NCBI RefSeq assembly: GCF_019649055.1
Contig: NW_026570224.1
Span: forward strand, 1,116,001 to 1,180,000
Source: Paramacrobiotus metropolitanus
Lineage: Eukaryota; Tardigrada; Eutardigrada; Parachela; Macrobiotidae
DNA length: 64,000 bases
Reading direction: 5' to 3'
Shown here: piece by piece, positions 26,901 through 40,171 of the stretch
How the letters are laid out: each line of letters begins with the position of its first letter
Numbering within the stretch: the stretch's first letter is position 1
Notes under the pieces: generated by a model
Database searches by the model: none
The model's input: only the letters and a program-made list of their open reading frames with translations
Told to the model about the DNA's origin: nothing
Made by a program: the position numbers and the translations under genes

Positions 26901-29900
26901 CAGCAGTCAAACTCGACACTGGATCCGATGCGGTACACTCCGGAACCTAATACCATGACCATGGGATTCTTCCGGTTGGGTATGAAATCGACATCATGCT
27001 GCTCCGCATGGTAAGTCAAATACAAATAGTTGGTGTGCGCCGGCCACTCTCCGGCTACTGTATCAATCTGTCGGACGAAGGGATGAATGTTCAGACCCAG
27101 ACGCCTTGTTCGCACCACGGATTCAGTACTATGTGCAAGCCTAACAAAAGAAAGTTCAAAACCTTGTTTAAAAAGTTTTTTAATGGCTTTTCATCGATTT
27201 GTTTGAATGACTACATAAAACAATTCACTGTCACCTTATATTTTTACCGTTATTGAAGTTAAAAATCATACTTAGCAATCTGCTTATCCGAAAAACCTAA
27301 ACGTTTGGCTTCCAGCATTATATCCCGCGTGAAACGATCAGTTGATAATTTTTTCAGTTTATCTCCAAAATTAATGATTCCTTCCATACGGTACAAAAAC
27401 CACCGATCAATTTTCGTGAGGTCATGCAGTTTGTCAACAGAATAGCCTTTGGCCAATGCTGTGGCGATGGTGAAAATGCGCTTATCGGTTGGATTCTCCA
27501 ATTCCTAAAATATCAACGATATATAAACCTCTAAAAGATAGAAATAGTAAGAAACGCACATCGTCAGATAACTTGTGCACGTCAGGGTCGAAACCCATGA
27601 AATGGTCGTCCACCATTCGTAAAGCTTTCTGCAAGGCTTCTTCAAAGTTACGTCCTATCGCCATTACTTCTCCGATGCTTTTCATAGAGCTCCCGATCTG
27701 CGTAGATAAAAAATTATAAGCATAATAAAAAACAGCGCATGGTAGATGGTAGTGCGATTTTACCTTTGTAGAAACGCGGCGAAATTTGTTCAAATCCCAT
27801 CGAGGCACTTTGACAACACAGTAATCCAGACTTGGCTCGAAGCAGGCTGTGGTCTTCCCACCAGTCACCTTGTTCATCAGTGCCGGCAAACTATGGCCCA
27901 TGGACACTTTGGCAGCAATGTAGGCCAAAGGATAACCTGTTGCTTTGCTAGCCAGTGCCGAACTTCGCGATAAACGAGCGTTGACTTCCACAACGTAAAA
28001 CTATTACGAATAACAGCAAAGATGGAAACCGATAAAGCAGTGCACCCACTAAATACTATACCTTTTCTGATAACGGATCCAGTGCATACTGTATATTGCA
28101 CTCGCCGACGATACCCAAGTGTCGGATAATTTCAATACCAGCACGGCGTAGCAGATGGTACTCAGAATTGGACAAAGTCTGACTGGGTGCAACGACGATA
28201 GACTCGCCGGTGTGAATCCCTAATGGGTCGACGTTCTCCATATTACACACCTATATTATAGCATAACCAATTAATTTTAAACTGTTACCAGAAGCGGCAA
28301 GTCATAGGTAAGTTGCACTCACAGTAATACAGTTGTCGAACTTGTCTCGAACGATCTCATACTCCACTTCCTTCCATCCCTTCAAACTTTTATCCACGAT
28401 GATCTGCGAACTTTGTGCCAAAGCCTTCGTGGCTAACGCTTCAAATTCCTCTCGGTTATTCGCGAATCCAGATCCTTGTCCGCCCAAAGCGTAAGCCGAC
28501 CGCACCAATACTGGGTAGGTTAATTCTTCCGCCGCTTGTACTCCTTCTGCCACACTCGTGGCAGTTTTCGAAGGTGCTACACTGTATCCAATTTCCTTCA
28601 GCTTCAAAGCGAACAGTTCCCGATCTTCCGTATCTTTGATTACTTCGACGGGAGTGCCCAGAACTTTGACATTGTATCTCTCCAGAACGCTTTTCTTTTC
28701 TGGGTGGTTCGGATCCGGATCATGCAGTTTAACCCCACAGTTCAGAGCCGTTTGTCCACCAAAGTTGAGCATGATGGCATCCGGCCATTCAGCCTTGATT
28801 ACCTGCTCCACGTAATCGGGTGTGATTGGTAGAAAATAAACATCTGTGGCCAGACCTTTAGAAGTCTGAACCGTAGCGATATTGGGATTAATCAGAACTG
28901 TGGATACACCATCTTCTTTCAGCGCTTTAATGGCCTGTGACCCAGAATAATCAAATTCACCGGCCTGTCCAATGCTTAAACCGCCGGAGCCCAAGATTAA
29001 AACCTTCTTCGGTTTTTGTGCAAAAACAGGATAGGGTGGAGGAGGAGCCTTTAGAGCTGAATCTATCGCTTGTGGTAAACTGAGATCGCTATAGGCCGCA
29101 CCACTTTTGGACTTATGGACGGTATTAAGAAAGACATCAAAGAGACACTCCAAATCACTTGGTCCAGCCATATGCTCAGGGTGGAATTGTACACTGAAAA
29201 AAAGCACACTCGTGTAACAAACATATCACTGAACAATCACGAAAAGAGCGAACAGGAAATGCGAAAATGAATTACGCAAAACCAATGCAAAACCATCATC
29301 ACAATAATAAAGCTATTTGGGTGAGGAGAACGCCTATATATATTAGACGATAAATCTTTCACCCTCAAGATCAATTTAATTTAATTAATCAATTTTTAAC
29401 GATGTCGATTCACGCTGACTAGCTCTTGAAACTAAATATTGCCAAATATGAGAAACATTCATTCAAGATAAGCAATGAATAACTTTAAGATACTTATGGA
29501 AACGAATACGAAACATTTCTGGGTTTACAGGAAATATTGCACCAATCGTAACAGAAGATATAATCAGCAAAAACGTACGAGAACACGGGCTTCTTGGTGT
29601 TGATTAAGCCCTCATTGCTCTTATCATTTGCATTGACAAAGAGCGTTTTCCATTCGCTTCCACTCTTCAATTTTTCTACATCCACTTCGTAGCCATGATT
29701 CTGGCTAGTGATGTAGCATCTGGTCGTACCGGAAAGTGTGCAAGGTTGGTTATGCCCCCGATTTCCGTAAAGCATCTTTCTGGTTTCCGCTCCAGCCGCC
29801 CACGCCAGCATCTGGTGCCCCATGCAAATACCGAACACCGGCTTAATCTGTGGCTGTTCCAGATACGCCCGCAGATTGCTGATAAGTGGAGTACACAACT

Positions 29901-33575: not shown

Positions 33576-36500
33576 CTAAAGGGCAGTCTGGTGACTATGC
33601 CCTGCTTCCGGTGCGACTTGGCTTATAACATTCAGCTGTTCCCGATGCTGATCATTGAATTGACTGTAGCATATATCCAAACATAAATATGCTGAAAGCA
33701 GATCCCTCCCAATTACGGTTCGTAATCTCTGTGTCAAATGTGTGAAATCCGGGCGTAGTCTCGGATCAAAATTCCAGCACTGAACCATCAACTCGTAGCT
33801 GCAAAAACAATACGAACAAGAGTAAAACTTTTAGCGTATTTATTTGGAATCCGAACTCAGATGAGCGATCACGTACATGGCCGTTGGACACGATGTCGGT
33901 CGTTCCATACGGTAACCGTCTCGCAGTGACTTCACAAGTTCCACAACGTCCCCAACGTCCGTTCTCATGTTGGCATAAGGATGCTCCCCAAAACTAAATA
34001 TCTCCCACACTGCAATGCCAAACGACCAGACATCGGATTGAACAGAGAATCTCCGCTCTGTTATCGCTTCCGGGGACATCCATCGGACCGGAAGAAATGC
34101 CTACGGACGGTTGAGTATACAAACAGACTAATACAGTATATATAGTACAATACAATCATTCTGCTCTGCTTTGACAACTGCGCATTTCTCGTATGAACAA
34201 TTATGCAAAATTTCTTAGACAACTGCATGGATAAAACGTGATTCGTACGTCACCTGTTGATCCATAAGAACGTATTCGAGCGTTTGCTTAGCCATTCCGA
34301 AATCGGCAATTTTCACCACGCGTCCGTCACAGACAAGGACATTGCGCGCTGCCAAATCTCTGTGGATTATGGAGCGACTGCCTAAGTATTCCATTCCACG
34401 GCTGATTTGAAAAGCGAAGCTCATAAGATCATTGGTCGACAGAATTTTTCCATCGAATTTATTGTTATTATCACTGTTTTTTAGCTGAAGATCCAGAATG
34501 CACTGCAATCGGTCGGCTTCGTCGTCGTCGAACGGCAAAAGGTCACCGGTAGCACTTGTGTGGCTGTAGAACCAAGCATCGCGATGGCATTTTAGAAACT
34601 TGGCTAGGCAATCGTATCTTGAAAATTCCAATAACAACAAAGTTTCCCCTGGAATTTAACAAGAACAGCCATTCAATATAATATGGTGAACGATTGTACC
34701 CGCAGGGATACATATTATGTTGAGTTTTCAGTCGAAACGTTTTATTGTTGTATACCCTTAAGAACCACCCCTATAAGATTGCAGATATTTAGATGACGAC
34801 CGGCTTTTGACATGATTGCCATTTCTTCCATCAGCTGGCGAACATGTCGTGGGTTCTTTTTGTCGCGCGCCGTCTTAATGGCAACTTCTGCCGGACACGC
34901 AACGTTGATTAATCCGTTTGCAATGCCTTTCCAAACAACTCCAAATTCTCCTCTTCCGAGAACGAGATTACCTGCAATAAAAGGCAACTTTCAAACTGTA
35001 CACTGATCATAGCTATTCTACAGACCGTCAGCATGACTACGTTAACGTCCATGTTAATAACTGATGGCTTTTTAAACGAACAACGTAAGTAAAATTTTTA
35101 TAACACACGTGACATATTTAATATACTGTATTCCAGCCAATACAATATCGAACAGAGTACGTGTTAATTATTAGGAAATAGCTATAGGCACCCCCTTTCG
35201 CACCCACTTAGACTATAGGCACCCCTTTTCGATTAATTAATTCCTGGCACCCGGTCGCGTGCGAAAACTATAGGCAAACCCAATTGTCCGTTGCTGTGTT
35301 TTTTTTCTTAACCTTAGAAAATTTCCCCTGCTCATGTAGTTTAACTTGCCGCCACATTACGCTCAGCAGAGATGGGACGAAGCCAGAAAGGTGTGCAAGC
35401 CGGTCATGTCAAGATTGCGGAACTTCCGCCTAAACGATTCGTAAAGGCGGCATGCGTCCAGGTGCTGCATGGCGCAGATCAGTTTATTTTGTCTCATAAG
35501 CGATAAGATTATGAGACAAAACTTCTTTGTGACCCAAAAAAACCTGTCAAAGAATTTTTATTATACTGTACCTCTGGGAAAAAAATAAAAACGGGTGCCT
35601 TTAGTTCGCTGAAAAAACGGGGTTCAAGATTTATCTAACAGAAAAGGGGTGCCTGTAGTAAAAAAGGGTGCAAAAGGGGGTGCCTATAGCAAACGGGGGT
35701 GAAAGGGGTGCCTATAGTCTCACCCTAACTATTAAGTACCACTCAAAACGATTCAAGATTTAAACATAAAAAACAGCCAAAACCGTTACCCTAGGGTAGT
35801 TTACTGCAATTGATAGTAGTGACCTTACTCATCTCTATGTTTGCTAGCGGAACTTCCAGCAGACGGACATAATTCATCACTGCCGGGTTCATTTCTGATT
35901 TTTCTACGCTTGAGTATGCTAGATTATCCATCGAGTCCTTCCGCATTCCCCCTGCTAATATCTCCATTGTTTTCAGTTTTTTGATAACATGCCTGCGGCG
36001 CCATACAATGGCACCCAGAGCGCCTCCGGAGAATAACAACACCACAAACGTGATAACGCAGCCGAGGACTGGAGCCAGATACGGTGATCCGTCAGCGTCA
36101 GCGTCGTTCAGCGCCAGAAAAAAAGATCCATTGGAATACATGCGCACAACCACGTAGTCTATCATATAATGCACTGGAAAAATGGAATTGTCCGGATGGC
36201 GATTGACCGCGAACGCGCCTCCAACCTTTTTTAGTTAAAAATACGTTACTGCGTAAGTTTTTATACATTTTTATAGCTGTAATTGAAATTTTCTCACACC
36301 CAACTTCATAACCAGCCCCAAAACAACTGACGGGATTTGTTTCACTTCCGCAATGCTGTACACTTCGTGCCCATCGATGTACCATCCCAAATAGGTTTCT
36401 GTCCAGATTAGTTTGTAAGTGTGATAGTCCAACGAGAAATCTTCAGTGCTGATTAAACCAACAAGCGATAAGATCAAGCAAGCTGCTAATTATAATCATA

Positions 36501-37399
36501 ATTCGATAGTATTGATTTCGGTAGCAAAAGTAGGTATACTTCTACATATGCAGCTGTGCCAGAATTACAATCTACCTGGTGTAATTGCTTTTGATTAAAC
36601 TTGGCTTTTGACCATCCATGTAATACGATTTCATTTCAATCATTCGGGGATGCTCCCCTAAAGCGCCGACTACGGTAACGGACGGTGGCCAGTAACCTTT
36701 GCACGACTTGGAAACGGGAGTGCACATCGGACTGAAGAGGAAGATCACCGATAGAATGGATTTCCCTTTGGCTACTTTAGCACGCCATTCTACTTCGCCA
36801 TATTTGAAATAGAATTTGTTCATGGTGTAAATCATTCCCGATGTGTAATTTCGATTTGCAAAGAATGCATCCACCTACAACTTGCTCTTATGTACAGGCA
36901 TCGATCATACCCAGCCTAATTTAACGTTAACCTACCGTAGGTGCTGTGTATTGTACATGTTATGCATGTTGCTGGTATTTATAAAATATTACGAAATTAA
37001 TAGTTTATGTCAAAAGTACCTGACATAGCGCACAATAAATAACTATTTTTTGTTCATCGGACCCTTAAATGACATTGTACACAACAGAATTCTAAAGATC
37101 AATGCGTGACTTTATGTGCAGTGCATACTCACTGGGGTACTGTTGCGGTCTTGACCAATGTATTTGGCCGTAATCGTCATAGTCCCATTGGAAACCATTA
37201 CATTGTTAGGCAGAAAATACTGGAGCTCGCCGTCGACATTGGACGGTGTATCAGAAACATACCATTTTCTTAAATCTACTGTGTCACCATCGAAATCATC
37301 ACGAAACACCTCTTTAAGACTTTCTTCACCCATAATTTCCCGTATGAACAGAAGAAGCAGTGCAACACAAAACAGTAGTCGAAAAGATCCGAGTGCCAT
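33576..37399 (-). CDS. Receptor tyrosine kinase with GH16 glucan-recognition-like ectodomain
   Basis: Eight exons join in phase: 37399-37133, 36874-36576, 36448-36298, 36225-35829, 34971-34756, 34648-34254, 34100-33877 and 33798-33576; about 723 aa. Order: signal peptide (1-24); GH16 laminarinase-like domain (about 30-275) with [64 protein letters not shown] and [10 protein letters not shown]; transmembrane helix about 289-314 followed by RRRHVIKK; juxtamembrane with DNLAYSS and NYVRLL; kinase from about 366 to 700 with [21 protein letters not shown] (Asp541), DFG (559-561), activation-loop Tyr569, WMSPEA and [17 protein letters not shown], plus a kinase insert (about 467-512) as in PDGFR/FGFR classes. 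The GH16 catalytic EIDxxE is absent ([13 protein letters not shown] at 151-163), as in insect beta-glucan-recognition proteins. Inferred: glucan-sensing membrane kinase. The kinase looks active. Confidence 0.9.
35182..35716. mobile_element. MITE-like element in the receptor-kinase intron
   Basis: It lies in the 857-base intron between the juxtamembrane and kinase exons. Its ends are inverted repeats CTATAGGCACCCC(C)TTTC at 35182 and the complement ending at 35716. Further copies of the same motif repeat inside both ends (at about 35212 and 35269 on the left; 35585, 35643 and 35678 on the right, inverted). The interior has a 44-codon frame beginning [14 protein letters not shown] at about 35372. 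The target duplication is unclear. Confidence 0.65.
35487..35521. repeat. Perfect 13-bp hairpin inside the intronic element
   Basis: TTTTGTCTCATAA and its exact complement are separated by nine bases. It sits near the centre of the MITE-like element. Confidence 0.7.

Positions 37400-38434: not shown

Positions 38435-40171
<1,737 letters not shown>

Follow-up and report, generated by a model that had tools for sequence, protein, structure and literature searches.

A tardigrade family of predicted receptor tyrosine kinases with PVR-like kinases and degenerate GH16 ectodomains

What kind of receptor joins a glycoside hydrolase fold to a tyrosine kinase, and what might it bind? The question is raised by a locus of the tardigrade Paramacrobiotus metropolitanus (RefSeq assembly GCF_019649055.1) in a stretch of 64,000 nucleotides (NW_026570224.1, positions 1,116,001 to 1,180,000), which is called the window here. 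A preliminary description of this DNA had proposed that eight exons form one frame for a signal peptide, a GH16 domain, a transmembrane (TM) helix followed by RRRH and a complete tyrosine kinase. We consider it likely that the gene encodes a type I receptor tyrosine kinase (RTK) with a PVR-derived kinase and an inactivated laminarinase fold of the GH16 type, and that it belongs to a family whose ectodomains bind diverse ligands.

The proposed layout agrees with the rebuilt splicing and with Pfam. On the minus strand, from position 37399 to 33576, eight exons give a single frame with a coding sequence of 2172 nt including the terminal stop codon, which corresponds to 723 amino acids (Table 1), and the seven introns are all bounded by GT-AG. 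The predicted protein consists, in one frame and in this order, of signal peptide, GH16 domain, TM helix, juxtamembrane segment and a complete split tyrosine kinase, and thus has the layout of an RTK with one TM helix between ectodomain and kinase. Both domain assignments are recovered by profile searches, with Glyco_hydro_16 (PF00722) at residues 65-224 (E 8.4e-12; 45.3 bits, above the cut-off of 22) and PK_Tyr_Ser-Thr at residues 375-675 (E 4.8e-80). Moreover, a search of PDB sequences matched the laminarinase 3azx to residues 47-267 (E 2.5e-16). Signal peptide and TM helix were called solely from hydropathy; the top 19-residue peaks begin at residues 1-8 and, before RRRH, at residues 285-297, and lesser peaks begin at 227-229 and 432. 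Five N-glycosylation sequons are present, all of them N-terminal to the TM helix. The junction of exons 7 and 8 was modelled by hand, the aligner version being five residues shorter there, and the hand-built junction was preferred because the paralogues contain those five residues.

Table 1. Positions in the window of the parts of the GH16 receptor gene
Feature	Position	Strand	Content	Basis
Exon 1	37133..37399	-	Start codon, signal peptide (about residues 1-24, 37399-37328), start of GH16	Splicing, hydropathy
Exon 2	36576..36874	-	Central strands of GH16, among them the degenerate one of the active site	Splicing, Pfam, 3azx alignment
SVTVVG, residues 154-159	36665..36682	-	Located at the GH16 catalytic E-x-D-x-x-E	3azx alignment, column counts
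Exon 3	36298..36448	-	GH16 strands	Splicing, Pfam
Exon 4	35829..36225	-	End of GH16, TM helix (about residues 291-314, 36072-36001), RRRH, juxtamembrane segment to VPLANIEM	
Intron 4	34972..35828	-	Phase 1, juxtamembrane/kinase junction	
MITE-like element in intron 4	35164..35735	.	TTAA-ended inverted-repeat repetitive element	Repeat search
Exon 5	34756..34971	-	Kinase N-lobe including the aC Glu	Splicing, Pfam, column counts
Exon 6	34254..34648	-	Hinge, kinase insert, catalytic loop, KIADFG	
Exon 7	33877..34100	-	End of the activation segment (VRWMSPE), C-lobe	Splicing, Pfam
Exon 8	33576..33798	-	End of the kinase, C-tail with the conserved tyrosine motif (Y687 at 33689-33687)	

The window gene has many relatives in the same genome. 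Exon 4 gave 8 matches in searches of the genome, the GH16 part 72 and the kinase part at least 160; the matches are often grouped on one strand. From this one genome, 58 stretches comprising 279,788 bases were analysed. Forty-nine of them (L001-L040 and L043-L051) were selected by their matches to GH16 or the kinase, the Abl-like kinase L042 together with L052-L058 served as comparison or flank, and L041 belongs to neither group. The 49 stretches and the window were modelled with a splice-aware, homology-guided protein-to-DNA aligner. A model was counted as a family kinase (n=47) if it covered 230 or more of the 300 kinase columns, and a GH16 ectodomain was called if at least 60 of 242 columns were covered in the same model. 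By these thresholds, 38 of the 47 kinase models, that of the window included, have GH16 upstream, in frame and in the same order as the window gene; five belong to an astacin clade, and for four no ectodomain was identified in the piece. The size of the family is a lower bound because 121 of 630 candidates were scored and the count refers to the matches listed. A few models in crowded stretches, such as L031-0 and L021-0, are implausibly long.

A GH16-only profile trained on 16 models (the window gene and 15 of the loci L001-L020) scored 1089 on the window gene, a member of its training set, and at most 93 on 114 controls, which were reversed loci and other slices of the window. With the better strand of each stretch scored, 21 of the 30 stretches outside the training set (L021-L040 and L042-L051) lay above 93; the others were L022, L029, L030, L035, L036, L037, L042, L046 and L047. 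Twelve weak or two-gene models were scored again, each on its own strand, and exceeded 93 without exception (range 100 to 259), L045 (100) and L028-0 (107) being marginal against the control maximum and uncorrected for multiple testing. Pfam found GH16 in the diverged members L017 (3.7e-10) and L016 (5.5e-13), and the matches of L025 (1.3e-4, at the cut-off) and L021 (0.0019, below the cut-off) were borderline. Chance similarity to GH16 is ruled out by the control scores and by the paralogues that repeat the architecture. Judged by its dN/dS values, the family is under purifying selection: with frameshifted models excluded, and with synonymous sites near saturation in most pairs, the ratio is 0.10-0.37 for the kinase (13 pairs) and 0.16-0.49 for the ectodomain (nine of the 13 pairs gave a finite value). 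In the median over 205 pairs, the ectodomain exceeds the kinase in dN by a factor of 1.5.

The ectodomains can be compared with L014, a GH16 gene without kinase (Pfam 7.4e-28), which on C25 is separated from a GH16-receptor gene by about 26 kb. L014 has an intact EIDVME and is predicted to be catalytic; its identity to receptor ectodomains reaches 51%, that to the window ectodomain being 39%, and it has both the GxWPALW strand and the E-x-D-x-x-E motif in common with laminarinases. The GxWPALW strand lines the sugar cleft of GH16. In the window copy, SVTVVG stands in the place of EIDVME, so that the catalytic E, D and E are all replaced and the enzyme motif is not matched, and the two Trp of GMWPALWL are Leu and Phe. 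The first Glu, the nucleophile, is found in none of the 32 ectodomains that have a residue there (one more is gapped and five are uncovered), and the third catalytic position is a Glu in two of 31 (L004 and L027-0). The preliminary description of the ectodomain as GH16-like and devoid of the catalytic Glu thus applies to the window copy, and the loss of the nucleophile extends to the family. Residues of the fold core are invariant where covered (F36 and W46 in 30/30 each, H198 and W204 in 37/37 each), whereas other residues are mostly lost, with the cleft residues W130 and W134 kept in 8 of 33 and 13 of 32 ectodomains, F160 in none of 32 and W243 in none of 36. The fold is thus constrained, and the enzymatic cleft is not.

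The kinase of the window gene has VAIK, the aC Glu, HRDLAARN and DFG, and therefore all five catalytic residues (K, E, D, N and D). The same holds for 36 of the 47 family kinases; in the remaining 11 the DFG Asp is missing, and they are, as predicted from this residue, pseudokinase-like, which means that the family members cannot all signal by catalysis. In a sequence search, the window kinase was nearest to PDGFRA, FLT3, VEGFR1 and KIT, followed by FGFR, and it contains a kinase insert. EGFR as best match (7.3e-88) was set aside, as that chain contains two kinase copies. The C-tail motif YLxLD contains Tyr687, which is found in 43 of the 44 models with a residue at this position. Tails of the FGFR type contain a tyrosine site that recruits an SH2 protein, and by analogy Tyr687 may do the same.

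The kinship of the kinase is also apparent from a tree of 52 rows, all from this one genome, from which L012, a model with stops and frameshifts, was excluded. L055 (C15:798k), an RTK with an Ig domain (I-set 2.4e-13 in Pfam), adjoins the family with a support of 100/98, and an FGFR-like and an Abl-like kinase lie outside. Of the canonical RTKs found in the genome, L055 is the closest, and it has the phase-1 junction of the family. Like the RTKs of the PVR and PDGFR/VEGFR class, to which its kinase is judged to be related, the window protein has a kinase insert; unlike them, it has a GH16 ectodomain (astacin in one clade of the family), and Pfam did not find an Ig domain in it. The base of the family is poorly resolved in the tree and takes in a clade of three rows with other ectodomains (L052, L053 and L056). 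A single clade of the GH16 rows, the astacin rows and the rows without assigned ectodomain gave a p-AU of 0.23, with which one origin of the GH16 fusion may be compatible. A clade of GH16 rows that excludes the astacin rows was rejected (p-AU 5e-7; unassigned rows not counted).

The five rows of the astacin clade group together (81/89) within a node of 24 rows (100/99), the rest of which are 16 GH16 rows and three without assigned ectodomain. Inspection of seven kinase stretches without GH16 uncovered astacin exons in L030, L035, L036 and L037, and in the models of all four the astacin part is spliced to the same TM exon. Of six pieces of L036 and L030 that were submitted to Pfam, four were recognised as astacin (E 2.4e-21 to 1.6e-12). 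The models have defects, namely frameshift marks in L035 and L037, a missing 5' end in L030 and another splice at the TM junction in L037. For L029, whose kinase falls inside the clade, no astacin was detected in the analysed piece (score 75 vs a null maximum of 100 on 14 controls), but further upstream, at C139:299219, there is a match to astacin. The zinc-binding and catalytic motif of astacins, HExxHxxGxxH, reads RELMHVLGFYNE in L035 and HALMHTLGFYHE in L037, and both members are thus predicted to have lost zinc or catalytic residues; L036 and L030 retain HELMH. The astacin family is large in this genome, with at least 165 matches (150 of 445 candidates scored), so donors for a swap were at hand. 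Taken together with the nested position of the clade, the models indicate that it exchanged GH16 for an astacin peptidase domain. The dozens of paralogues, the PVR-like kinase and this nested clade go beyond the preliminary description, which was limited to the window.

We propose that the kinase and its junction to the membrane part derived from a PVR (PDGFR/VEGFR-like) receptor. The pseudo-enzyme ectodomain would bind an extracellular ligand through its diverged cleft or its surface, dimerisation or clustering of the receptors would lead to trans-phosphorylation, and phosphotyrosines such as that of the conserved YLxLD site would recruit SH2 effectors. Diversification of the ectodomains among the paralogues may have provided the members with different ligands, some members may have turned into pseudokinases, and one clade replaced GH16 by the astacin peptidase fold. 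The receptors of the family are presumably expressed, bind ligands and signal. As each member has one expressible ectodomain of about 250 amino acids, ligand screens would be direct.

The ligands could be sought among proteins or the polysaccharides of the animal's own cuticle or egg coat, the family members then being gamete, self/non-self or developmental receptors, and this tentative possibility deserves mention. It would fit the fast divergence of the ectodomains between near paralogues, as in L023 and L025, with a dN of 0.54 for the ectodomains vs 0.10 for the kinases. The loss of the sugar cleft and the grouping of several family genes close together on each of C25, C98 and C7 also point in this direction. 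However, the word "kinase" is absent from the main text of the paper on the sex-biased transcriptome of P. metropolitanus (PMC11191345).

The direct sensing of beta-glucan, which the preliminary description had put forward, is weakened by the degenerate cleft, and we regard it as doubtful that GH16 binds microbial or algal beta-1,3-glucan while the kinase signals. In its favour, the ectodomain belongs to the laminarinase type, and some paralogues retain Trp residues of the GxWPALWL strand, L003 having both of them in GIWPALWM. The window copy, however, has replaced the three catalytic positions and both of these Trp, which are also gone from most paralogues with a residue there, and the uneven loss among the members is expected if their ligands differ. 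The ectodomain of EphA2, a vertebrate RTK, is unrelated to GH16. It offers a vertebrate parallel all the same, as EphA2 is reported to detect beta-glucan (PMC7850503). The idea also gains from another study, in which homologues of GNBP1/3 and PGRP-SA/SD were undetected in the sampled tardigrades and other Ecdysozoa (PMC7056985). The receptors are candidates for microbe sensing in a group of animals in which recognition by GNBP or PGRP went undetected. A still broader scenario, which we think rather unlikely, is that tardigrades, in which GNBP and PGRP recognition as known from the insect Toll type went undetected, built their own repertoire for innate recognition by fusing inactivated secreted hydrolases (GH16 and then, by replacement, astacin) to a PVR-type kinase, giving rise to dozens of fast-diverging receptors with pseudokinases as possible decoys or co-receptors.

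Among the known systems, the GNBP/beta-GRP proteins resemble the window protein in having a GH16 fold without the catalytic Glu, as GNBP have lost the catalytic residues of GH16. Their N-terminal hallmark is CBM39, they bind beta-1,3-glucan, and they have neither a kinase nor a spanning helix. In contrast, the window protein is a predicted membrane receptor with its own kinase and at most putative glucan binding, and Pfam did not find CBM39 in it. Membership in this group was rejected on account of the missing CBM39 and the presence of TM helix and kinase. Of the kinship with GNBP/beta-GRP that had been suggested for the locus, the GH16 fold devoid of the catalytic Glu remains; the missing CBM39 and the laminarinases as nearest solved sequences speak against it. 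The laminarinase 3azx shares the fold family and the sequence along the aligned residues with the window receptor, which differs by the replacement of the catalytic E, D and E.

Lineage-restricted families of tyrosine kinases have been described, for instance KIN16 in nematodes and RTKC in choanoflagellates, and FPVR receptors diversified by incorporating various extracellular domains (PMC8662651). The terms tardigrad, glyco and astacin are absent from the main text of that paper, and neither tyrosine kinase nor astacin occurs in the main text of the tardigrade genome paper from 2017 (PMC5531438). The claim that no RTK with a GH16 ectodomain had been described is in keeping with the literature: among the matches listed, which covered titles and abstract openings and few subscription journals or preprints, there was no RTK with a GH16 or astacin ectodomain. 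The family would add a class of ectodomains to the RTKs, and it would illustrate how a PVR-type kinase is re-used with dead-enzyme modules, with an ectodomain swap caught in the phylogeny.

Two further readings concern the integrity of the window gene itself. As judged from the 17 of the 47 family models that carry a frameshift or a stop, some paralogue models are pseudogenes or mis-modelled, and the window locus might likewise be a decaying copy; this is very improbable, however, given its intact frame, canonical splice sites and five kinase catalytic residues. It is hardly credible that two neighbouring genes, one for the GH16-TM part and one for the kinase, mimic a single gene. The two halves are parted by intron 4, which is long (857 bp), and the frame of exon 4 runs for 12 codons beyond the donor to a stop. 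However, the intron contains the MITE-like element, which has 134 matches in a genome search, and as this repeat accounts for the length of the intron, a gene boundary is not needed. Moreover, the kinase exon lacks an in-frame ATG in the stretch from the preceding stop to its splice site, and the phase-1 junction of juxtamembrane segment and kinase occupies the same position in 45 of the 47 family kinase models, the exceptions being L020 and L040. In 13 of the 38 GH16 models, one of them frameshifted, a single exon codes for GH16, membrane and juxtamembrane parts. Finally, distances between the GH16 domains correlate with those between the kinases (Mantel r 0.78, reached in none of 2000 permutations) in the 31 genes whose models cover 150 or more GH16 columns and 230 or more kinase columns, L012 being excluded. 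Distance covariation, junction phase and one-exon paralogues rule out the two-gene artefact, and the junction of VPLANIEM with the kinase exon stands as it was first read. Within the same set, the nearest neighbour by GH16 is also the nearest by kinase in just 17 of the 31 genes.

Besides members with GH16, the receptor kinase family to which the window gene belongs comprises receptors whose ectodomain is an astacin peptidase (stretches L036, L030, L035 and L037 of the same genome), and in two of these four the HExxH part of the astacin motif is degenerate. The catalytic DFG Asp is absent from eleven kinase models, which were located in stretches L021, L022, L024, L027, L028, L031, L034 and L038 on contigs C98, C7, C9, C516, C347 and C6. 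These eleven receptors are pseudokinase-like. In the kinase tree, the split-kinase receptors of L052, L053 and L056 form their own clade with ectodomains of other kinds, and Pfam gave a weak MAM match, below the cut-off (E 0.022), in one of them.

The GH16 gene L014 retains an intact catalytic EIDVME motif; a gene for a GH16 receptor on C25 is about 26 kb away from it. No kinase was found beside GH16 in the examined pieces of L003 (second model), L039, L043, L044, L048 and L050; truncation of the genes, or pieces that were cut, may account for these copies.

Coordinates of the features
Feature	Position	Strand	Remark
GH16, model without kinase or TM (L014)	C25:1200500-1206000		
GH16 copy without kinase in piece examined (L003, second model)	C154:35000-43800		
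Receptor kinase, astacin peptidase ectodomain	L036 298-2223	+	same family as window gene
Inverted-repeat element, TTAA ends, 572 bases	window 35164-35735		within intron 4; repeat detection
GDP-mannose 4,6-dehydratase, flanking gene	window 38720-38998	-	Pfam
Carbamoyl-phosphate synthase, flanking gene	window 28302-29225	-	Pfam

A genome search with the intron 4 element, which is MITE-like, returned 134 matches. Both neighbours of the window gene are ordinary genes.
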